A stretch of 29,823 nucleotides of DNA from a virus. The notes beneath the pieces were generated by a model, which was not told the DNA's origin, made no database searches, and saw nothing but the letters and a program-made list of their open reading frames with translations. Of this stretch, positions 445-29,823 are shown piece by piece. The position numbers and the translations under genes were made by a program. The first letter of the stretch is position 1. Every line of letters starts with the position of its first letter. The stretch lies in IMG/VR virus record IMGVR_UViG_3300032291_001438, positions 1 through 29,823 of that record; one strand, given 5' to 3'.

Positions 445-588
445 ATGATAAAGCACTTAATAGATTTATTAAATAAAAACGATTACTATGGTGTATCTAA
501 AAACATTGATATAGCTAAAGGAAAATATTCAATTCCATATAAATGGAAAGATGGATTTAAACAAATAAAGAGAATTTGGTATGGATAA
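445..588 (+). CDS. Small 47-aa ORF overlapping the tape measure start
   Basis: The frame opens with ATG at 445 (MIKHLIDLLNKNDYYG) and stops at 586-588, 8 bases into the tape measure gene. The product is basic and rich in Lys, Ile and Tyr, with no membrane segment and no family I recognise. It fills an otherwise empty gap of 175 bases between the fibre gene and the tape measure gene, and its end overlaps the next start in an arrangement suited to translational coupling. It could be a small tail protein or a leader peptide. It could also be chance in AT-rich DNA, although a 47-codon ORF ending exactly at the next start is suggestive. Confidence 0.45.
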   Translation: MIKHLIDLLNKNDYYGVSKNIDIAKGKYSIPYKWKDGFKQIKRIWYG

Positions 589-3103
589 TACTACTACATA
601 CACAACAACAATAGATGTTGAGGTAACAGGTCAGGAAGATTTACAACAATTAGGTGAAAAAGCCGAACAAAATGATTCGAAATTTAAATCTTTAAAATCT
701 CAAATCAGAGAAACAACTGTTGCTTTACAAAAATTGGCTGATGCTGGGCAAGAAGGTACAAAGGATTTTGAAGATTTAAGAACAAAATTGGATGATTTAA
801 ATGATGCTCAAGAAAGAGTAGCATTCCAATCAGGCCAAATTGATGATAAGTTAGCATCTTTACCTGGTCCAGTAGGGCAAGTTGGACAAGCTATTCAGGG
901 TTTCAATGAATCGGTAAATAGATTTGGTAAAGGATTAACTGCTGCATTAGGTGTAGTTGGTTTAATAGTAGGAGCTTTTTTAGCATTAAAAGAATCTTTA
1001 AGTAGAACTGAAGAAGGACAAAAGAAATTAACACAAATTACTGAAGCATTTACTAAGATAATGAACGGATTGTTTGCTATCATAGAACCAATTGCTATGT
1101 TGTTAGCAGATTTAGTTGTTCAGTTTCTATCAAACGATAAAGTTCTTAAAGTACTATCTAAAACATTTGCTACTTTTGCAGCTATTGTAAAAGGTTCATT
1201 TACTATTGTAAAAGAACTAGCTACCTTTGTAGGTAATAACTTAGTTAATACTTTTAAAACTGCAGCTGGTATTATAGGTGGATTTGGTAAAGTATTAGGT
1301 GGAGTATTCACATTTGATTTAGATAAGATTAAAGAAGGTTTAGCTGAAGTTGGAAAGACTGTAACTACTGGAGTTGGTAATTTTGTAAACAATGTTAAAG
1401 ATAGATACAAAGGAATTAAGGATGGTGTTGGTGAAGCATTTGTAGGTGCTGAAACTCAATTTACAAAAGGTACAAAGAGATTAACCGATTTAGAAAAGAA
1501 GAATTTAGAAGAACAAAAGAAAAAGGATAAAGAAGCAGCAGATGCAGCTAAAGCAGCAGCAGAAAAAGCACTTCAGGATAGATTAAAATACTTAGATGCA
1601 ATAGATAGGTTAGATGAAGCTGCGTTAGAGAAGGAGAGACAAAATGTGTTAGCATCAGTAGCAATTCAGCAAGATGCAAATGCAAAACAATTAGAGTTAG
1701 ATAAACAATCTGAATTAGCTAAAGCAACAACTGTTGGTGAGAAACTTTTAATTGAGCAAGAATACCAAAAGAAATTAGATGAGTTACTTTTAGATGGTGA
1801 AGAAGATAGAATAAGAATAGAGCAAGCGTTTGCTAAAAGGTCTTTCGAAACTCGTAAAAAAGATATTGAGGATAAAAGAGCATTATATCCTAAAGCAAGT
1901 AACGAATACAAAACATATACTGCTGAATTAACTAAGTTAGATTCAGATTACATAAAACAAACTTCAGAGTTTACTAAGCAATTTTCTGATAATAATCAAA
2001 AAAGAATTGATGCACAAAAGAAAGCATTAGATAAACAAATATCAGATATACAAACTTATAATGATTTAGTTGCTGCTATTAACTTAGCTGCAATTAAGGA
2101 TGAGATATTAAGAGCAGAAGTTGCAAGAGAGCAAAAGAGAAATAAAGATGTTGAAGCAATTAAAGCAACTGCTGAATTTGCTAAACTAACTGCGGAAGAG
2201 CAAGCTGGTGTATTAAAGCAAATAGAGAAATCGTTCCAAAATGATTTGGCTAAGATTAGAGAAGATGCTAGAGTTAAAGAAAACGAAAAGTTAATAAAAG
2301 GATATGATGAACAATTACGTTTATTAGAACTTATAGGTCAGAATCTAATAGCTGGAACTAAAGCATATTTTGAGAATCGTGCTCTTATATTAGATGAAGC
2401 TGAAGCTAAGGAGTTAGCTAAGTTGGATATTACTGAAAGAGAGAAGACAGCAATAAAAGAAAAGTATGTTAAACTTCGTAAACAATTAGATGAAGATGAG
2501 ATACGTTCTTACGCAGCAGTAGCATCTCAAACACTATCTGCATTATCAGGTGTAACATCTGCTTTGGCATCTGCATTAGATGAGGAAGCTAAAACATCTA
2601 AAGAGGCATTTGAGAAAAGAAAGAAATTACAAAAGGCAACTGCTATTATGAGTGCAGCTAGTGGTATCATCCAAATACTTGCACAGCCATCTACATTACC
2701 ATCACCATTTGATTTTATTGTAAAGGGTATAAACGCAGCAGCTTTAGGTATAGCAACAGCAGTACAAATTAAGCAAATTAATGCTACACAATTTGAAGGA
2801 GGAGGTTCGGTATCTTCACCATCATTATCATCTGCATCTGCTACACCTCCTAGTGTTAAGTTACCAACAATTGAATCAAAAGGAGCACCAACTATACAAG
2901 GTACGCAAGGTGGGCAAAACCCAACAAGACAATTAGCTGAAACATTAGCTAATAGAACCGATAGGATGGTTACTACGTTAGAAGCAAATAATGAAAGACC
3001 TATTAAAACATATGTAGTTAGTGGAGATATGACAACACAACAGGCATTAGATAGAAGGACTAATAGAGCAGCAACATTTAGTGGAGGTGCAACATTAGGA
3101 TAA
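581..3103 (+). CDS. Tape measure protein
   Basis: This 840-aa protein would act as the ruler inside the tail tube and pass through the tail on DNA ejection. Residues 20-90 and about 290-640 are long, highly charged Lys/Glu/Ala-rich helices that should form coiled coils. Hydrophobic segments occur near residues 118-136 (LGVVGLIVGAFLAL), 160-184 (IIEPIAMLLADLVVQ) and about 640-735. Gly- and Ser-rich patches follow near the C-terminus. It is the second longest gene in the genome, as expected for a long-tailed phage. By the usual relation of about 1.5 angstrom per residue it predicts a tail of about 125 nm. It follows the distal tail genes around the circular join and precedes the protease gene. 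The ATG at 581 overlaps the end of the small upstream ORF. No lytic enzyme domain is visible. Confidence 0.85.
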   Translation: MDNTTTYTTTIDVEVTGQEDLQQLGEKAEQNDSKFKSLKSQIRETTVALQKLADAGQEGTKDFEDLRTKLDDLNDAQERVAFQSGQIDDKLASLPGPVGQVGQAIQGFNESVNRFGKGLTAALGVVGLIVGAFLALKESLSRTEEGQKKLTQITEAFTKIMNGLFAIIEPIAMLLADLVVQFLSNDKVLKVLSKTFATFAAIVKGSFTIVKELATFVGNNLVNTFKTAAGIIGGFGKVLGGVFTFDLDKIKEGLAEVGKTVTTGVGNFVNNVKDRYKGIKDGVGEAFVGAETQFTKGTKRLTDLEKKNLEEQKKKDKEAADAAKAAAEKALQDRLKYLDAIDRLDEAALEKERQNVLASVAIQQDANAKQLELDKQSELAKATTVGEKLLIEQEYQKKLDELLLDGEEDRIRIEQAFAKRSFETRKKDIEDKRALYPKASNEYKTYTAELTKLDSDYIKQTSEFTKQFSDNNQKRIDAQKKALDKQISDIQTYNDLVAAINLAAIKDEILRAEVAREQKRNKDVEAIKATAEFAKLTAEEQAGVLKQIEKSFQNDLAKIREDARVKENEKLIKGYDEQLRLLELIGQNLIAGTKAYFENRALILDEAEAKELAKLDITEREKTAIKEKYVKLRKQLDEDEIRSYAAVASQTLSALSGVTSALASALDEEAKTSKEAFEKRKKLQKATAIMSAASGIIQILAQPSTLPSPFDFIVKGINAAALGIATAVQIKQINATQFEGGGSVSSPSLSSASATPPSVKLPTIESKGAPTIQGTQGGQNPTRQLAETLANRTDRMVTTLEANNERPIKTYVVSGDMTTQQALDRRTNRAATFSGGATLG

Positions 3104-3128: not shown

Positions 3129-4496
3129 ATGATATACGAATTAGTAATAGAAGACGAGAACATAGATGAAGTATTTGCTATCTCATTAGTTAAATCACCA
3201 GCTATGGAAAGCAATTTTATTTACTTTGATAAAGAAGAAATAAAGTTTGCTGAAGTAAATGATGAAAAGAGATTAGTGATGGGTGCAATACTAATACCTG
3301 ATAAAAAGGTATTGCGTATAGATGGTGAAGGAAACCCATATCATGTTTTCTTTAAACCAGAAACTATTAGAAGATTATCTGAAATGTATTTAGAAAATAA
3401 ATACACAGACAAATCTACATTAGAGCACGATGGTGCAGTTGCTGGTGTGAATTTGGTTGAGTCATGGATAGTTGAAGATAGAATGAAAGATAAATCAGCA
3501 GTGTATGGTTTATCACTTCCAGTTGGAACTTGGGCTGGTACATTCCGAATCAACAACGATGAGATATGGAATGATTACGTTAAGGAAGGTAAAGTAAGAG
3601 GATTCTCAATCGAAGGCCTATTTGGACATAACTTAGTATCAGCTGCTAAAGAAGAGATTTGGATGAGCAAAGATATGGATGAGTTAAGTGATGATGAAGC
3701 CAACTTGTTCCTATCAATGATTAAAGATATAGTTAAGTTTCAATCTTATGCTGATTATGGTGATGAGATTAAAAACAATGCTAAAAGAGGAATCGAATTA
3801 AACGAAAAGAATGGTAATAAATGTGCTACTCAAACAGGTAAAGTAAGAGCACAACAATTAGCAAATGGTGAAGCAATATCAGTTGAGACAATTAAAAGAA
3901 TGTATTCTTTTTTGAGTAGAGCTGAAACATACTACGATGAAACTGATGTTAATGCTTGTGGTACAATATCATACCTATTATGGGGTGGTAAATCAGCCCT
4001 AAGTTGGAGTAGAAACAAACTAAAAGAATTGGGATTGTTGGAAGAGCAAGAAGCACAACCATCAATCGCATCTACATACCCTGGCGAAATAGCAAGTGGA
4101 AGTATTGCCCCTGCATTGTTAGCAGAAGGTGGTTGTCCCGAAGCAACGCAGAACATTGGATTAAATCTATTCAATCGACAAACTGCTATCAGGAAAGCAA
4201 AGTATGGACCTTTAAATCCAAACGAACCAAACGAAGAATATTGGAAAGCAAAAGCAGACCAATTTGGAAGTTCAGTTGAAGAAGCTAAGAAAGCACTATG
4301 TGCTAATTGTGTATTCTTCTACCAAACTCCACAAATATTAGATTGTATTGCTGGAGGTATAGAAGCAAAAGGAATGGATGACCCGTATTCGGCAATTGAT
4401 GCTGGTGATTTAGGTTATTGTGAAGCATTCGATTTCAAATGTGCAGCAAGTAGAACGTGTGATGCTTGGGTAGTAGGAGGTCCGATAACTAAATAA
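3129..4496 (+). CDS. XkdF-like prohead protease fused to a MAR-like and a cysteine-rich domain
   Basis: The N-terminal ~190 residues match the XkdF-type putative serine prohead protease pattern: MIYELVIEDE, an AISLVKSPAMESNF segment, STLEHDG, then VESWIVED, DKSAVYG, GTW and GFSIEG. Such proteins process capsid and scaffold proteins inside the prohead. Residues about 215-300 (NAKRGIELNEKNG, then VRAQQLANGEAIS and SYLLWGG) match a module I know fused to phage proteases and head proteins. Residues about 390-455 carry six cysteines: CANCVFF, ILDC, GYCEAFDFKC and RTCDAW. The CxxC...C...C spacing with adjacent aromatics recalls high-potential iron-sulfur proteins. The start is supported because MIYELVI is the usual beginning of this family. 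It is unusual that the protease lies after the tape measure gene, far from the capsid gene at 20964. Confidence 0.75.
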   Translation: MIYELVIEDENIDEVFAISLVKSPAMESNFIYFDKEEIKFAEVNDEKRLVMGAILIPDKKVLRIDGEGNPYHVFFKPETIRRLSEMYLENKYTDKSTLEHDGAVAGVNLVESWIVEDRMKDKSAVYGLSLPVGTWAGTFRINNDEIWNDYVKEGKVRGFSIEGLFGHNLVSAAKEEIWMSKDMDELSDDEANLFLSMIKDIVKFQSYADYGDEIKNNAKRGIELNEKNGNKCATQTGKVRAQQLANGEAISVETIKRMYSFLSRAETYYDETDVNACGTISYLLWGGKSALSWSRNKLKELGLLEEQEAQPSIASTYPGEIASGSIAPALLAEGGCPEATQNIGLNLFNRQTAIRKAKYGPLNPNEPNEEYWKAKADQFGSSVEEAKKALCANCVFFYQTPQILDCIAGGIEAKGMDDPYSAIDAGDLGYCEAFDFKCAASRTCDAWVVGGPITK

Positions 4497-11233: not shown

Positions 11234-11533
11234 ATGTTTGAGAAAGGAAATAAATTAAGTAAGGGTAGACCATCAGGTGCATTGAATCGTTCTACCGAAC
11301 AAATGAAACTAACATTGGCTAGAGCTGCTAACAACACACTCAATACGATAGCAGAAGATTTAGAGAAGATAAGAAAGAAAGACCCAGAGAAAGCCATTGA
11401 GCTATCCCTAAAGCTAATGGAATATGTCCTACCTAAATTGAGTAGGACAGAGATGAAAGCAGAGATTGATACACGGATACAAGCAATCAATGTAAACATA
11501 GCACAAAAGAACATAGATGAACTTAGAGATTAA
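11234..11533 (+). CDS. Terminase small subunit
   Basis: The N-terminus (MFEKGNKLSKGRPSGALNR) is the basic GNKLxKGRPxGxxN motif common to small phage DNA-binding and terminase-small-subunit proteins. The remaining part is helical, with KKDPEKAIELSLKLMEYVLP, the pattern seen before the large terminase in many phages. At 99 aa it is short but usual. It overlaps the large subunit gene by 17 bases. It would recognise the packaging site and load the large subunit. Confidence 0.72.
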   Translation: MFEKGNKLSKGRPSGALNRSTEQMKLTLARAANNTLNTIAEDLEKIRKKDPEKAIELSLKLMEYVLPKLSRTEMKAEIDTRIQAINVNIAQKNIDELRD

Positions 11534-12677
11534 TACAACAGTAACGTATAGTAATCAGCAGGATTCTCCAACTAGAGTAACTCATCACATAGGTGGAACT
11601 CGTAGTGGTAAAACATACGCATTACTTCAATGGTGTATCGTACAAGCTCTTAGTAGCAAGGAAACGATTACTATTGTAAGAAAGACAATACCATCGCTTA
11701 AACGTACAGTAATGAAGGACTTTAAGGATGTGATGATGAGCTTGGGTATATGGAATGAAAATGATTTTAATATCTCTGATAGGATATACAACTTCTATAC
11801 TGAATCTCAAATACAATTCATATCAACGGATGATGCTGAAAAGCTGAGAGGATTAAAGAGTACTATCTTATGGTTGGAAGAAGCTAATGAGATAGATGAA
11901 GAATCTTACTTTCAGCTACAAATTCGTACAACAGGTCCAATCATATTATCCTATAACCCAACTATATCTCCATACCATTGGATAAGGTTAATGCAAGAGT
12001 GTACAAGACACTTTACAACCTATAAGAACAATCCTTATTTAGAAGCTAGTGTTAAGAAAGCTATTGAAGATTTACAAAGAACAAATCCAAAGGCATGGTT
12101 AGTGTATGGATTAGGAGAGTATGTAAGTAATGAGAAAGCAATCTTCCAATTCAACGTAGTAGATTTCCTACCTGATGAAGCCACCTTTGTTGCATTCGGA
12201 TTAGACTTTGGATACTCATCTGACCCAACTGCATTAGTTAGTGTATGGAAGATGGATAATGAGCTATACATTATGGAGCATTGCTATGAGAAAGGAATGG
12301 TAACATCCGATATAGATAATATGTTAAGGAGTGTTGTGAAAGATAGAGAAGAGATATGGGCTGATAGTGCAGAACCAAGATTGATAGATGAACTATACCG
12401 ATTAGGATGGAATATAAGACCTGTAATAAAAGGAAAGGATAGTATTAACTTTGGTATTCAGGTAATGCAGAACTATAAGATTAACATACCAAAGACATGC
12501 CAAAACCTAACCAATGAGTTCTATTCATATGAGTGGAGTTCAGATAGGTTCGGTAAGCAATTAGATAAACCAGTAGATTTCAATAATCACCTAATTGACG
12601 CAGCTAGATATGCAGCAATGATGAGGTTATCAAACAAAGCCACAGCGCAAGGCAAATACATAATCAGCGTAAGATAA
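11517..12677 (+). CDS. terL: Terminase large subunit
   Basis: This 386-aa packaging motor has an N-terminal ATPase with Walker A GGTRSGKT (residues about 26-33) and Walker B STILWLEEANE (about 115-125). The C-terminal RNase H-like nuclease shows FGLDFGYSSDPTALV (about 227-241), the second acidic site IWADSAEPRLIDEL (about 279), and NHLIDAARYA (about 357-366). This is a PBSX/phage-terminase-large-subunit type. It is a little short but all motifs are present. It powers DNA translocation into the prohead and cuts the concatemer. The N-terminus overlaps the small subunit end. Confidence 0.93.
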   Translation: MNLEINTTVTYSNQQDSPTRVTHHIGGTRSGKTYALLQWCIVQALSSKETITIVRKTIPSLKRTVMKDFKDVMMSLGIWNENDFNISDRIYNFYTESQIQFISTDDAEKLRGLKSTILWLEEANEIDEESYFQLQIRTTGPIILSYNPTISPYHWIRLMQECTRHFTTYKNNPYLEASVKKAIEDLQRTNPKAWLVYGLGEYVSNEKAIFQFNVVDFLPDEATFVAFGLDFGYSSDPTALVSVWKMDNELYIMEHCYEKGMVTSDIDNMLRSVVKDREEIWADSAEPRLIDELYRLGWNIRPVIKGKDSINFGIQVMQNYKINIPKTCQNLTNEFYSYEWSSDRFGKQLDKPVDFNNHLIDAARYAAMMRLSNKATAQGKYIISVR

Positions 12678-12687
12678 ATAAAACCAT

Positions 12688-12948
12688 ATGGCAATAGACT
12701 TAGATAACCTAACAAAAGAAGATTTCATAGAGATGGCAAAGTATGTACACTCAATGGAATTAAGAGTACAACAAATGAAAGCAGAGATGCTTGCGTTGGC
12801 AACCCAAAGGGATAATGCACAATTCAAATTAAACCAATTGAGTTCGCAGGTTATTACACCAATCACAAATATCCCAAAGAAAGCCAAACTAACCGATGAG
12901 TTAGATTTGGTTAATCCGGAACAATATAGAATAAAGAAACAATTTTAG
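12688..12948 (+). CDS. Small coiled-coil protein
   Basis: The first ~55 residues form an amphipathic helix with heptad character (EMAKYVHSMELRVQQMKAEM). A Pro/Lys-rich linker (ITPITNIPKKAK) and a short acidic tail follow. There is no family I can name. It sits between the large terminase and the tail assembly chaperone, with gaps of ten and two bases, so it belongs to that operon. It may be a minor assembly factor. Confidence 0.65.
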   Translation: MAIDLDNLTKEDFIEMAKYVHSMELRVQQMKAEMLALATQRDNAQFKLNQLSSQVITPITNIPKKAKLTDELDLVNPEQYRIKKQF

Positions 12949-12950
12949 TT

Positions 12951-13628
12951 ATGAAGAAGGAAGTAAAGATAGTAGTACCAAACGATTGGAGTGCAGTAAC
13001 TCTAAAGAAGTATTTGGATTTAAGAAAAGATATGGCTAACTATGAAGATGATAAAGATGCAGTTGTAGCTTGTATGTTTCACCACCTATGTGATTTCCCA
13101 GTTGAATACATAAACGGATTAAGATATGATACATACAATCAGATAGTAACTGATTTAGTTAGCTTTCTAAATAAGATTGAGTATCCTCTACAAAAGCTTA
13201 TACACATAGATGGGATTGAGTATGGATTCGAACCTAACCTATCACAAATGGCATATGGTGCTTATGTAGATATTACTAAGTATGAAAGCATAAACATAGA
13301 TGATAATTGGGCAGAGATAATGAGTATCCTATACAGGCCTGTTACAAAGAAGGTTGGACAACTATATGAGATACAACCATATTCAGGCAACATAGATAAA
13401 GATAGATTCCTAAACGTAAGTATGGATAAACACTTTGGTGCAGTTTTTTTTTTCAAAAGTTTACTGATGGACTTATCCAAAGATACCCTGAGCTCTTTGA
13501 TGGACCTCAAGGAGATATCTCCCAACATCAGCACAACTTTGGAAAGAAGTGGAAAGCTTATCCATCAATTGTCCAACTTGCCAATGGTGACATCCAACGA
13601 ATTGACGAAGTTACTAAAGAACCCTTAG
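12951..13628 (+). CDS. Tail assembly chaperone, unshifted product (G-like)
   Basis: This is the 225-aa zero-frame product. The pattern VPNDWSAVTLKKYLDLRK, GIEYGFEPNLSQMAYGAYVD, SILYRPVTKKVG and HFGAVFFF is one I know from tail assembly chaperones of Bacteroidota siphophages (beta strands, then the RPV segment). After the T10 run (13444-13453) this frame continues for 58 codons and stops at 13626-13628. In lambda-like phages the G protein binds the tape measure protein during tail assembly. Its gene is usually next to the tape measure gene; here it follows the terminase, on the other side of the genome. See the overlapping -1 frame entry. Confidence 0.7.
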   Translation: MKKEVKIVVPNDWSAVTLKKYLDLRKDMANYEDDKDAVVACMFHHLCDFPVEYINGLRYDTYNQIVTDLVSFLNKIEYPLQKLIHIDGIEYGFEPNLSQMAYGAYVDITKYESINIDDNWAEIMSILYRPVTKKVGQLYEIQPYSGNIDKDRFLNVSMDKHFGAVFFFKSLLMDLSKDTLSSLMDLKEISPNISTTLERSGKLIHQLSNLPMVTSNELTKLLKNP

Positions 13629-13717
13629 AGAAGTGCCTGTTGTTTTTGGCTTTCAAAGCTGATGAGGCATTCATAGAAGAGTTGATGTATAAGGAAGCAA
13701 TTAAGAAAGGTGGATAG
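12951..13717 (+). CDS. Tail assembly chaperone, -1 frameshift fusion (GT-like)
   Basis: A -1 shift in the T10 run joins residue 167 of the zero frame to an ORF in the -1 frame (re-read at 13451, stop at 13715-13717), giving 255 aa. The new part reads FQKFTDGLIQRYPELFDGPQ, then FGKKWKAYPSIVQLANGDIQ, RIDEVTKEPLEKCLLFLAFK and a Lys-rich end. The FGxKW-x-YxSI-x-x-LAxGDIxxxDEVTKxPLxxCLxxLAF pattern is what I expect of the T-domain of such chaperones. The -1 ORF has no ATG near its start, so it needs frameshifting, or the T-run length is wrong. The sequence gives both frames open for 174 bases with unusual third-position C use for this genome. Confidence 0.72.
13444..13453 (+). other. T10 slippery run, putative -1 frameshift site
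   Basis: Zero-frame codons are GTT TTT TTT TTC. The heptamer T TTT TTT (13445-13451) is a canonical X XXY YYZ type slippery site; a run of ten T could also give transcriptional slippage. A weak hairpin CAAAGA/TCTTTG lies at 13478-13499, further away than normal stimulators. Confidence 0.65.
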
Positions 13718-14040: not shown

Positions 14041-17000
14041 ATGTCTCAATTAAACAAAACGCAGTTAGAACAAGAAAACCAAACTAACTTCCCAAATAAC
14101 AATACAGGTTTTATAACTCCTACTAGACTAAGAGAGTTTAATACTGATATGATTGACTCAATGACAACTGAAGGTCAATTCAATTCTGCTTCATCATCAT
14201 TAAGTGCATCAATAGCAATGCTTGAATTACAAGTAGATGCATTAGTATTATCAGGTAGTGGTGTTGTAATATTAGATGAAGGTGTATCACAGGGCTCAGC
14301 TACAACATTAAACTTTGTTGGACCTACTATACAAGTAAGTGTAACAGGTTCACAAGCTAACATATATGCTAACACATCTGGATTAGCAACAACTGGTTCT
14401 AATACATTTAGAGGTGGACAACAAATAAGTGGAAGTAGTGGAGTTACGGGTTCATTCAGTATAACAGGTAGTTTAATAATAAATGGAACATCATATGCAT
14501 CAGCAACAAGTGGAACATCCGGCACCGGAGGTACATCAGGTACGTCTGGGACTAGTGGAACGAATGGAACGGCTGGAACAGGCGGTTCATCAGGTTCGTC
14601 TGGAACAAGTGGAACTTCGGGAAGCAGTGGTTCGTCTGGTTCATCAGGTTCAAGCGGTTCAAGTGGAACTTCAGGAACTAGTGGAACATCAGGTACAAAC
14701 GGTACGGCTGGTAGTGGAGGTTCATCAGGAACTTCAGGCACTTCGGGCACAAGCGGAACATCTGGATTAGATGGTTCGCAAGGTGTAAGTGGAACTGCGG
14801 GAAGCAGTGGTTCTTCTGGAAGTTCAGGTTCATCTGGTTCAAGCGGTACATCGGGTACTTCTGGAACAAGCGGAACATCTGGTTCTAGTGGAAGTAGTGG
14901 TTCATCAGGTTTGTCTGGAACTGCTGGTACATCTGGTACATCTTTTCTATGGAGAGGAGATTGGAATAGTGGAACATCTTATAATATAAATGATGTAGTA
15001 TCATATAATGGTAGTTCATACATAGCAATAAATGGAGTTGGTAATACAAACCAAAATCCAGCAATACAAACTGCGTTTTGGTCATTAGTAGCATTAGCAG
15101 GAACAAACGGAACTGCTGGTAGTGGTGGTTTATCAGGTACTTCTGGAACAAGCGGAACATCTGGTGTTTCTGGTTCTTCAGGCTCATCTGGTTCATCAGG
15201 AAGTAGTGGAAGCAGTGGAAGTAGTGGAACATCAGGCACTAGTGGAGTTGATGGAACAGGCGGAAGTTCTGGAAGTTCTGGATTAAATGGAACATCTGGC
15301 ACAAGCGGTACATCAGGTACTTCTGGTAGTAGTGGTTCAAGCGGAAGCAGTGGAAGTAGTGGAACATCTGGTAGTTCAGGTATAAACGGAACATCGGGTA
15401 CATCGGGAGCAAGTGGTGATTTATATCGTACAACTTCAGTAACTTCATTTACATTAGGTAACGCAGGAACAATAACAGTAGGTACTGGATTAGCATATTC
15501 AGTAGCACAATCAATAATAATAGTATATGATGCTAACAACTTCCAAGAGTGTGAGGTAATAACTTACAATAGTGGAACGGGAGCATTACAATTTGCTGCA
15601 CCAACTAGAACTGTTGGTAGTGGCACATATTCAGCATGGACTGTAAACTTAGATGGTGCAAGTGGTGGAGATGGTTCTTCGGGTACTTCTGGTACATCTG
15701 GATTAACTGGAACTTCTGGTGTTAATGGTTCATCTGGTTCATCAGGAAGTAGTGGAACAAGCGGCACTTCTGGTACAAGCGGAACTTCTGGTTCTTCTGG
15801 TTCAAGTGGTAGCAGCGGTTCAAGCGGTAGTAGTGGAACATCTGGTACTTCTGGTAGCTCATTTACTTGGAGAGGACAATGGAACTCAATTGACATTTAT
15901 GTAGTAAACGATGTAGTAGAATATGATGGTAGCTCTTATATATGTGTAGTAGGTAATACTGATGAAGACCCAATAGCATATCCAGACAAATGGGATTTAG
16001 TAGCTCAAGCAGGAACAAATGGAACTGCTGGTTCAAGCGGTACTTCGGGCAGTTCAGGTTCTTCTGGAACATCAGGAACTTCTGGTACTTCTGGTACATC
16101 GGGAACATCAGGTATAAATGGTACAAATGGAAGTAGTGGTACTTCGGGTACATCTGGGACTAGTGGAAGTAGTGGTACTTCGGGCACTTCTGGTACAAGC
16201 GGTGTAAATGGAGTAGCAGGTAGTAGTGGGACATCAGGTACTTCTGGTACTTCTGGAATCAATGGTGTAGCTGGTAGCAGTGGAACTTCTGGAACAAGCG
16301 GTACATCTGGTACAAGTGGAAGTAGTGGAGCAAATGGTTCATCCGGTAGTAGTGGAACATCTGGTACTTCAGGTTCAAGTGGAATAAATGGAGTAGCTGG
16401 AAGTAGTGGAACATCAGGAACAAGCGGTGTAAACGGACTTGCTGGAAGTAGTGGTTCATCAGGTACTTCTGGAACATCAGGAGCAACAACAATATCAACA
16501 ATAGCTGATGATGGAATTGTACAGGGTACTGCAACATTCTTAAACTTTAGTGGAAGTGGTGTTACTGCAACTGTAAATTCAAACACAGCATCTATTATAA
16601 TATCTGGTGGTGGTGGAAGTGGAGCAGGATTCCCATTCTCTGGTTCTGCTGAAATAACAGGTTCTTTAATTGTAACTGGTAGTTACAGAAGTTTAGTTGT
16701 ATCAACATCAATAGCTTCAAATACATCATCAATAGATTTATCAAAAGGTAATTATTTTACTGCTGGTGTTAGTGGAAGTACATTCTTTAATTTCCAAAAT
16801 GCTAAAGCTGGTCAAACTGCTGAAATAATTGTGACTACATTAACAAATGGGGCATTAGCAACATTTGATACTCAATCTGTGTACTTTGCAGATGCTACAT
16901 TTTATGGACCAACTGTACCATCTCAATCAATAGATTTATTAAATGTATTCGTAAAAGATAACAATAATATTTTAATAGTACCAGATAAAAACTTTATAAA

Positions 17001-17856
17001 ATATCAAGTTAGTGAAGCTGTAACTGCATCTTATTTAGTAGTAGCAGGTGGAGGAGCTGGAGCTTATACTGGATTTAATGGTGGACGTAGTGGAGGTGGT
17101 GGTGCTGGTGGATATCGTAATTCATTTGGTACTGAATATTCAGGTGGAAATAGTGCAACTGAAACACCATTAACAATTGCTTTAGGAACTTCTTATACTG
17201 TAACTGTTGGGGCAGGTGGAACTTTAAGAGGGTCTGGTTCATTATCTCAATTTAGTTCAGTTATATCAACCGGAGGTGGTGGGGGTGGTATTATGGATAA
17301 TGTTGGTGGAGCTGCTGGAGCAGGAGGAAGTGGTGGTGGAGCTGGTGCTAATGGTTCTGGTGGAAGTACATTAGCAGGTGGTTTAGGTATTTCTACTCAA
17401 GGATTTAATGGAGGTACTACTGCAGCTGGTTCTGATGTTGCTGGTTCTGGTGGAGGTGGTGCTGGAGCAGTTGGTGGAAATGGAGCTAGTGCAGTTGGTG
17501 GAGCTGGTGGAACCGGATTAGCATCATCAATCACAGGCACTTCTGTAACTAGAGCTGGTGGTGGTGGTGCATATGGTGGTAATAGTGGTGGAGCTGGAGG
17601 AGATGGTGGTGGTGGAGCTGGAGGAACTGGTGGTGGAACTGCGGTAGCAGGTACTGCAAATACTGGAGGTGGTTCAGGTGGTGAATCTTCTGGAAATGGT
17701 GAACCTGGCGGTAGTGGTGTAGTAATCATTAGATTTCCAGCAACATTAACAGCAACATTCACTGGAGGTGTAACACAAACAACATCAACTATTGGATTAG
17801 CAAAAGTTGCTACTATAACTGCAGCTGGTGTAAGTGATACTGTAACATTTAGTTAA
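14041..17856 (+). CDS. Collagen-like tail fibre with binding modules and Gly-rich C-terminus
   Basis: This 1271-aa protein is the largest in the genome. Residues 1-150 form a beta-rich head with a DEGVSQGSATTLNFVG module (79-110). Residues about 157-300, 360-455, 545-600 and 660-812 are collagen-like Gly-X-Y repeats, nearly all GTSG, GSSG and GTNG. Three globular inserts interrupt them: two paralogous modules (about 301-355 and 606-660; WRGDWNSGTSYNINDVVSYN and WRGQWNSIDIYVVNDVVEYD) resembling carbohydrate-binding domains of the CBM5/12 type, and a beta domain at 458-545. Residues 823-855 repeat the head module (DDGIVQGTATFLNFSG). Residues about 998-1240 are a Gly-rich domain starting YLVVAGGGAG. 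I infer a trimeric fibre or capsid appendage that binds host glycans. Confidence 0.75.
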   Translation: MSQLNKTQLEQENQTNFPNNNTGFITPTRLREFNTDMIDSMTTEGQFNSASSSLSASIAMLELQVDALVLSGSGVVILDEGVSQGSATTLNFVGPTIQVSVTGSQANIYANTSGLATTGSNTFRGGQQISGSSGVTGSFSITGSLIINGTSYASATSGTSGTGGTSGTSGTSGTNGTAGTGGSSGSSGTSGTSGSSGSSGSSGSSGSSGTSGTSGTSGTNGTAGSGGSSGTSGTSGTSGTSGLDGSQGVSGTAGSSGSSGSSGSSGSSGTSGTSGTSGTSGSSGSSGSSGLSGTAGTSGTSFLWRGDWNSGTSYNINDVVSYNGSSYIAINGVGNTNQNPAIQTAFWSLVALAGTNGTAGSGGLSGTSGTSGTSGVSGSSGSSGSSGSSGSSGSSGTSGTSGVDGTGGSSGSSGLNGTSGTSGTSGTSGSSGSSGSSGSSGTSGSSGINGTSGTSGASGDLYRTTSVTSFTLGNAGTITVGTGLAYSVAQSIIIVYDANNFQECEVITYNSGTGALQFAAPTRTVGSGTYSAWTVNLDGASGGDGSSGTSGTSGLTGTSGVNGSSGSSGSSGTSGTSGTSGTSGSSGSSGSSGSSGSSGTSGTSGSSFTWRGQWNSIDIYVVNDVVEYDGSSYICVVGNTDEDPIAYPDKWDLVAQAGTNGTAGSSGTSGSSGSSGTSGTSGTSGTSGTSGINGTNGSSGTSGTSGTSGSSGTSGTSGTSGVNGVAGSSGTSGTSGTSGINGVAGSSGTSGTSGTSGTSGSSGANGSSGSSGTSGTSGSSGINGVAGSSGTSGTSGVNGLAGSSGSSGTSGTSGATTISTIADDGIVQGTATFLNFSGSGVTATVNSNTASIIISGGGGSGAGFPFSGSAEITGSLIVTGSYRSLVVSTSIASNTSSIDLSKGNYFTAGVSGSTFFNFQNAKAGQTAEIIVTTLTNGALATFDTQSVYFADATFYGPTVPSQSIDLLNVFVKDNNNILIVPDKNFIKYQVSEAVTASYLVVAGGGAGAYTGFNGGRSGGGGAGGYRNSFGTEYSGGNSATETPLTIALGTSYTVTVGAGGTLRGSGSLSQFSSVISTGGGGGGIMDNVGGAAGAGGSGGGAGANGSGGSTLAGGLGISTQGFNGGTTAAGSDVAGSGGGGAGAVGGNGASAVGGAGGTGLASSITGTSVTRAGGGGAYGGNSGGAGGDGGGGAGGTGGGTAVAGTANTGGGSGGESSGNGEPGGSGVVIIRFPATLTATFTGGVTQTTSTIGLAKVATITAAGVSDTVTFS
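14509..16485 (+). repeat. Collagen-like minisatellite region
   Basis: The DNA is a set of nine-base (three-codon) near-repeats built from GGA/GGT, AGT/TCA/TCT/ACA and the like, interrupted by three unique stretches (14938-15110, 15413-15670 and 15853-16015). The synonymous codons vary heavily, which limits recombination between copies. The tract invites length variation, and its exact length from short reads deserves caution. Confidence 0.8.
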
Positions 17857-24797: not shown

Positions 24798-25334
24798 ATG
24801 GGACAAGCAGTAGTTAATAATGTAGGCACAAACTATATGTTGTACTATAACATAATAGATTTCTTTGCAACTATTATGGCAAATCACCCGTCTATTGCTA
24901 AAGTATCAACAGGTGATATGTACGAAATTGATACAACTGAATTTCCACAATATCCAATTGGTAATATAAACATATTGGGAGCTAGATTTGGTACAAAAAC
25001 TACTAATCTTACTGTTCAATTAACAATTGCTGATAAAGTTAAAGATAAAAATAACGAATCAGTAGGTAGAACAAATTATCAGAAAGTCCCATTCTACGGA
25101 ACTGATGATACAATGGATATACACTCTAATACTTTGAGCATACTAAACGATTTATTAAGTTATACTGATTATGGTGTAAATGCATTTGAATTCGCTGGTG
25201 AACCAAATGCCACCCCATTTAAGGACAACTTTGATAATGGACTTGCTGGTTGGGTTTGTAATTTTGATTTAATTGTGTTCAATGATGTTGATAGATGTTT
25301 ATTTAATCTATCAGGTAAAATCAATCTTTGTTAA
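24798..25334 (+). CDS. Tail terminator / tail completion protein
   Basis: This 178-aa protein shows an alpha-beta layout (YYNIIDFFATIMANHPSIAK; YPIGNINILGARFGTKTTNL; TVQLTIADKVKDKN) followed by a helical stretch that reads DTMDIHSNTLSILNDLLSYT, and a C-terminal beta part ending NFDLIVFNDVDRCLF. This combination, just before an HK97 gp10-like protein, is typical of the tail terminator class. The stop (TAA) and the next start (ATG) share a base, TAATG, so translation is coupled to the next gene. Confidence 0.65.
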   Translation: MGQAVVNNVGTNYMLYYNIIDFFATIMANHPSIAKVSTGDMYEIDTTEFPQYPIGNINILGARFGTKTTNLTVQLTIADKVKDKNNESVGRTNYQKVPFYGTDDTMDIHSNTLSILNDLLSYTDYGVNAFEFAGEPNATPFKDNFDNGLAGWVCNFDLIVFNDVDRCLFNLSGKINLC

Positions 25335-29118: not shown

Positions 29119-29823
29119 ATGGCAACTAAACAAAAAATATACATACCAACTTATATCTCCAGCGTAACATATCAACCTGCTAGAGTTCAACCACGTATCC
29201 TATTTTACAACTCAACTAAAAATTGTGAAACATATTACATAGCATCAGGTTCATCAGTTCAAGCACAAGAATCATTTCCATATTTTGACAATTATAGTGG
29301 AATTAATACAACATCTGATTCATTATCACTTTTATTTAATAATGAGGATGCACCATATGGTGTAATTCCATCTCAATCTTTGTACACAACTTATTGGGAA
29401 AAGTATGTTGATTTATTATACAATCCTAGAACTCGTTTATTTAACGCATCAGCGATTATTCCATTAGCAAAGTACTTTGAGATGGAATTAAATGATATCG
29501 TTCAATGGAGAGGAAATACATACCATTTAAGGGCAATTAACGATTACAATCTAAGTACAGGTGAATGTAGTATTCAATTATTAGGACCTATATTGGAAGG
29601 TGCATTATTTCCAGAGGAGTTTGACCCAACTCCTCCTGCACCACCAGTTCCTCCTAGTCCTCCAGCTCCTCCTAGTCCACCATCGCCAACACCAACGCCT
29701 ACGCCTACGCCTACGCCTACGCCTACGCCTACACCTACGCCTACGCCAACACCAACGCCTACGCCAACACCAACGCCAACACCAACACCAACACCAACGC
29801 CAACACCAACACCAACACCAACG
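29119..29823 (+). CDS. 5' part of (Thr-Pro)-hinge tail fibre/baseplate protein, continues at position 1
   Basis: The ATG at 29119 lies six bases after the hub stop. Residues 1-172 form an N-terminal domain (MATKQKIYIPTYISSVTYQP; LYNPRTRLFNASAIIPLAKY; FEMELNDIVQWRGNTYHLRA; DYNLSTGECSIQLLGPIL) of the kind that closes Bacteroidota hub proteins (a beta domain with W-x-x-x-Y-x-L-xxI ... L-xxP). A Pro-rich linker (PPAPPVPPSPPAPPSPP) leads to Thr-Pro repeats from residue 191, running into the contig end with no stop. Continuing at base 1 gives (TP)26 in total, a C-terminal domain and a stop at 405 (328 aa). The overlap 29701-29823 repeats 1-123 and must be counted once. It may carry the receptor-binding domain on a stiff stalk. 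Confidence 0.8.
   Translation, partial: MATKQKIYIPTYISSVTYQPARVQPRILFYNSTKNCETYYIASGSSVQAQESFPYFDNYSGINTTSDSLSLLFNNEDAPYGVIPSQSLYTTYWEKYVDLLYNPRTRLFNASAIIPLAKYFEMELNDIVQWRGNTYHLRAINDYNLSTGECSIQLLGPILEGALFPEEFDPTPPAPPVPPSPPAPPSPPSPTPTPTPTPTPTPTPTPTPTPTPTPTPTPTPTPTPTPTPTPTPTPT
29701..29823. repeat. Right copy of 123-bp terminal direct repeat
   Basis: It is identical to bases 1-123. It begins exactly at a codon boundary of the gene at 29119 (582 bases from its ATG), so joining 29700 to 1 keeps the frame. The unique genome length would be 29,700 bases. Confidence 0.9.

Follow-up and report, generated by a model that had tools for sequence, protein, structure and literature searches.

A recoded gene downstream of the terminase

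The window is the whole stretch of viral DNA analyzed here, 29,823 nucleotides long. Shortly after its terminase gene lies an open reading frame of 225 aa (12951-13628) that contains a run of ten Ts, where the codons are GTT TTT TTT TTC. Past the run this frame (frame 0) remains open for 57 further codons and a stop. The -1 frame is open as well, for 90 codons including the run, and its stop ends at 13717. Only 15 nt of open frame lie upstream of it, and no ATG, GTG, or TTG start for it is found in the window within 150 nt. The original prediction, made from the sequence of the window, had placed the 0-frame gene, the run, and the -1 frame correctly. It had also described the -1 frame as a coherent domain that lacks its own start, and this holds, the domain being conserved in relatives. 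The features of the locus are collected in Table 1.

The run stands out from its surroundings. It is the sole T run longer than seven in the window, the next-longest A/T runs being A8 and T7, and a first-order model predicts only about 0.1 runs of ten or more Ts in a window of this kind. The shared stretch had been said to carry more C at third positions, which is borne out: in the -1 frame of the overlap the proportion is 22%, compared with 13% in the N-terminal part and 9% genome-wide, although the first value comes from 58 codons only. An AF2 model of the 0-frame tail has helices at 191-208 and 210-223, with low confidence. Elsewhere in the window, one Thr-Pro repeat coding sequence occupies both ends (1-405 and 29119-29823), which suggests a circular genome broken or collapsed there. 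Positions 14041-17856 hold a collagen-like open reading frame of 1271 aa, rich in GTSGTSG/GSSGSSG repeats.

Table 1. Features of the recoded locus and of related genes in the window.
Feature	Coordinates	Strand	Evidence
Tape measure protein, away from the recoded gene	581..3103	+	PHROG tape measure families
Terminase large subunit, conserved upstream neighbor	11517..12677	+	Pfam Terminase_3 / 3C; synteny in relatives
86-aa ORF between terminase and recoded gene	12688..12948	+	Homologues only in G001 and G002 of the records compared
N-terminal domain, 164 aa, common to both predicted products	12951..13443	+	69 viral loci, 28-64% identity; phrog_32199 (E 7e-10); PF10109 below cut-off in 9/34 relatives
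T10 run, candidate slippage site	13444..13453	+	Sequence; T9 or T10 in 72/72 clusters
In-phase heptamer T_TTT_TTT within the run	13445..13451	+	
In-phase heptamer T_TTT_TTC within the run	13448..13454	+	
C-terminal tail in frame 0 (57 codons plus stop), overlaps the -1 domain	13454..13628	+	Halved third-position substitution rate; dual-coded constraint over about the first 38 codons
T-domain-like 90-aa domain in the -1 frame, lacking its own start codon	13445..13717	+	47-66% identity to relatives; at least 510 encoding stretches in IMG/VR
178-aa tail-module protein	24798..25334	+	Homologues in G004 and G006 have a second T10 and a C-terminal extension; the window has neither

The frame break is conserved

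A search with the N-terminal part returned 69 viral contigs, and 80 of the IMG/VR stretches returned by a search with the -1 domain alignment were examined. In all, 151 loci were compared, in 72 clusters. Some contigs came up in both searches, so there are fewer than 151 contigs and the clusters are the fairer count; the clusters are themselves related to one another, so that counts overstate independence. Two loci are cut by contig ends.

Among the 151 loci, every one that reads through the junction has T9 or T10 there, with the -1 domain continuing beyond it. This includes two distant contigs (L072 and L073), which carry the junction run and an open -1 domain too. It also includes a sequenced isolate, Nonlabens phage P12024S, whose homologous gene, at 24% identity, has a junction run of T9 and a homologue of the -1 domain. 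Its genes 38 and 39 are the two pieces, annotated as separate hypothetical proteins. Neither a run length that gives one continuous frame nor an unshifted copy of the gene was seen in the 151 loci, the two observations that the original prediction had named against itself. Homopolymers are error-prone, but it is hardly credible that the true gene is a single continuous frame hidden by mistakes in sequencing or assembly, or that the gene has decayed, when the same break and a conserved -1 domain recur in several run registers across 151 loci including an isolate genome, which rules out sequencing error. By this comparison the T10 frame break is confirmed as real and as a conserved -1 recoding site.

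The phages of this group are bacterial viruses from water. Their hosts are probably Bacteroidota, to judge from the one named relative. L072 and L073 are assigned to MAGs of an alphaproteobacterium and an archaeon; their gene content fits this phage group, and they are probably mis-binned.

Both frames are constrained over part of the overlap

If frame 0 is under selection beyond the run, then the third positions of the -1 frame should change slowly, because they are the second positions of frame 0. This is what is found. In the first 40 codons of the overlap, third-position change in the -1 frame is 0.13-0.14 per site (about 45 disjoint pairs), whereas it is 0.27 in the single-coded N-terminal part and 0.29 after the 0-frame stop. 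The difference between overlap and flanks is much smaller at first and second positions. A codon-identity statistic agrees, with an excess identity of 0.32 (0.20-0.45) in the overlap, 0.09 (0.00-0.19) after it, and 0.18 (0.13-0.22) in the N-terminal part. The claim that both frames are coding is therefore supported, over a limited distance. Constraint is strongest at codons 5-37 and absent by codons 40-49, even with frame 0 still open. It was considered that the constraint might end at the 0-frame stop of each sequence, but this was rejected, the end being near codon 38. About 38 residues is also the shortest length of the 0-frame tail in the main clade.

What if only the -1 product matters, and composition together with amino-acid constraint leaves frame 0 open as a by-product? 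The openness of frame 0 in the window has P = 0.003 under the window's own codon usage, but P = 0.23 when codons are only shuffled within the region. In addition, the last part of the tail is unconstrained, and in P12024S, L072, and L073 the tail is only about 25 codons long. Against this, nearly all relatives too have a 0 frame whose openness the window's codon usage makes improbable, and third-position change of the -1 frame is halved over the first ~38 overlapped codons. An RNA structure might have explained such constraint, but no conserved one was found from 30 nt upstream to 140 nt downstream (RNAalifold, 32 sequences, -0.48 kcal/mol, no compensatory pair). Some other RNA signal might also account for it. 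A by-product is thus an improbable explanation, and selection on both frames over about 38 codons is supported. Since the within-region shuffle is not significant for the window, this support comes from the substitution rates.

The length of the run and the mechanism of the shift

All 72 clusters have a run of at least nine Ts inside the gene, as expected of a programmed transcriptional slippage site. It is T9 in 43 clusters and T10 in 29. The site always keeps one register (codon 1, Phe, Phe, codon 4), and the codons at the two ends compensate for each other. Of the 38 clusters with TTT as codon 4, 37 have a codon 1 that ends in another base than T; all 34 with TTC, TTG, TTA, or TAT as codon 4 have a codon 1 ending in T. 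On the best tree the register has switched about eight times, at least three of them on well-supported branches. A sign test of this compensation on the starred branches had three pairs, too few to reach significance.

The run is also bounded from above. T11 does not occur in the 72 clusters, although common codons would create it. After NTT codons a Phe at codon 4 is always TTC, although TTT makes up 66% of Phe codons. Similarly, the Leu codon CTT is absent before TTT TTT TTT, and Leu at codon 4 is TTR only. A separate peculiarity is that the base 5' of T9 is G (27) or C (10) and never A in the 37 T9-class clusters. This runs against usage, A-ending codons being about half of the Leu codons before TTT, and no coding reason for it was found.

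Two mechanisms could produce the shift, and both would yield the same fusion protein. The original prediction put ribosomal frameshifting first and transcriptional slippage second. Programmed -1 frameshifting at T_TTT_TTT, of the type used in lambda G/GT and P2 E/E+E', has points in its favor. The in-phase heptamer is present in 72 of 72 clusters, and the codon compensation preserves it too; the long run would then be a set of overlapping heptamers that raise efficiency. The P2 slip site, TTTTTTG, functions without a downstream hairpin (PMC3091744), and the reviewed phage tail chaperones of the G/GT layout use ribosomal frameshifting (PMC5009743). Nevertheless, several observations do not fit. 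A heptamer needs seven Ts, which leaves unexplained a run fixed at nine or ten, the restriction of Leu to TTR at codon 4, and the avoidance of T11. U_UUU_UUU is much less shift-prone than A_AAA_AAG on E. coli ribosomes (PMC5009743). No conserved stimulator was detected, RNA structure in that role having been rejected on the RNAalifold result given above. Frameshifting by the ribosome is rated a little short of even.

Slippage by RNA polymerase is suited to runs of this length. Efficient slippage by the bacterial enzyme in vivo occurs at nine A or T, and the RNA-DNA hybrid is 9-10 bp (PMC5009743); nine is also the run length under selection in many genomes (PMC1088944). A strict need for T_TTT_TTT would account for the compensation, but neither for the floor of nine nor for the ceiling of ten, and because of this the family pattern leans, at modest odds, to RNA polymerase slippage on T9/T10 as the mechanism. 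It reverses the predicted order of the two mechanisms without settling it. The maximum of ten could also come from avoiding slippage during replication.

A second T10 run in a tail-module gene

Another gene of these phages bears on the mechanism. In G004 and G006 the homologue of the 178-aa tail-module protein contains T10 (TGT CTT TTT TTT TTA) followed in frame by an extension of about 113 aa. The sites are at about 8566 in L164 (G006) and at 3168-3177 in G004, and others lie in L168-L247; in L191 the extension is kept and the run is absent. An exact T10 is found in 34 of 35 clusters of this gene. In all 34, the +1 and -1 frames each meet a stop within seven codons, and in 33 the +1 stop (TAA, TAG, or TGA) is at the end of the run. 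Third-position change is 0.009 in the four junction codons, against about 0.27 around them.

A slip of one base in either direction would therefore give a short form, the form that the window has. The dnaX gene of T. thermophilus likewise has stops in both other frames, and there run lengths other than 9 or 9+3n lead to the short product (PMC1088944). For -1 ribosomal frameshifting a +1 stop would be needless.

Are the products tail assembly chaperones?

The gene had been predicted to encode a tail assembly chaperone, and this identification is plausible but weakly supported. In its favor is the layout, which resembles G/GT: in all relatives the sequence is arranged for two predicted products that would share an N-terminus, by a -1 shift near the 3' part of the gene. 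Pfam PF10109 (Phage_TAC_7) is matched by the relatives noted in Table 1 with a best E of 5e-4, and the one scored in detail reaches 15.5 bits against a cut-off of 25. A single relative of 34 matches phrog_3140. Less favorable is the absence of similarity to P2 gpE in a profile comparison. When both models were searched by fold, the PDB gave no significant match, and BFVD gave one to an annotated chaperone only at E 0.02 and TM 0.34-0.38; the products are therefore assigned no fold. The NCBIfam matches are chance only, and T4 gp26 and gp51 belong to other PHROGs.

Gene order cuts both ways. In the window the gene is not between the major tail and tape measure genes, as it follows the terminase and the tape measure gene is elsewhere. 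However, in L072, L073, and P12024S it stands between the terminase and the tail-module genes, a position that suits a chaperone. Taken together, the products are quite probably tail assembly chaperones.

A model and its relation to known systems

In the proposed model, one gene gives rise to at least two proteins that would share an N-terminal domain and differ at their C-termini. Most mRNA would be read in frame 0 to yield a G-like protein whose tail is itself under selection; it has 57 residues here, and about 38 of them are constrained in the family. A fraction would change to the -1 frame at the T run and yield a GT-like protein with the 90-aa domain. The likeliest cause of the shift would be slippage of RNA polymerase on T9/T10, which would leave one extra U in the mRNA and need no stimulator. 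The run would be held between nine and ten to set the product ratio, and the proteins would most likely serve as tail assembly chaperones. The model as a whole is mildly favored.

The likeness to lambda G/GT and P2 E/E+E' lies in one start that would here too serve two products, a short one from frame 0 and, after the -1 shift, a longer one that gains a C-terminal domain. P2 also has a U-rich slip site without a downstream hairpin. However, frame 0 of P2 gene E closes about 20 nt past the slip site, whereas the overlap here spans 38-57 codons, about 38 of them under constraint in both frames. The lambda and P2 sites are heptamers rather than runs of nine or ten Ts, and in contrast to those chaperone genes the window gene is not beside the tape measure. 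Other parallels are T. thermophilus dnaX, Shigella mxiE, and IS elements, in which, as here, a homopolymer of at least nine is present and no other signal has been found. Those are cases of programmed transcriptional slippage, which for the window gene is a proposal. In the literature searched, no phage tail gene using programmed transcriptional slippage was found.

Tail chaperone ratios are a standard example of ribosomal frameshifting. Should transcription set the ratio in this lineage instead, a different machine would be filling the same need. The chances are about equal for and against a broader proposal: that in a lineage of probable Bacteroidota phages tuned RNA polymerase slippage replaces ribosomal frameshifting in the tail-chaperone gene, with both ends selected over about 38 codons, and that some members reuse the T10 cassette in a second tail-module gene for long and short forms. 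The long constrained overlap would mean that selection acts on the end of the short product as well, in contrast to P2.

There is also a consequence for annotation, which misses the -1 domain or, as in P12024S, makes it a separate hypothetical gene. Gp10 of Flavobacterium phage 6H, matched weakly by fold in BFVD, lacks a T9 run at its end and was set aside as a counterpart. Nevertheless, at L154:10044-10939 gp10 is followed by an unannotated open frame of 105 codons in another frame, and its PHROG profile is 293 long against 191 for gp10 itself. Possibly this is another recoded gene.
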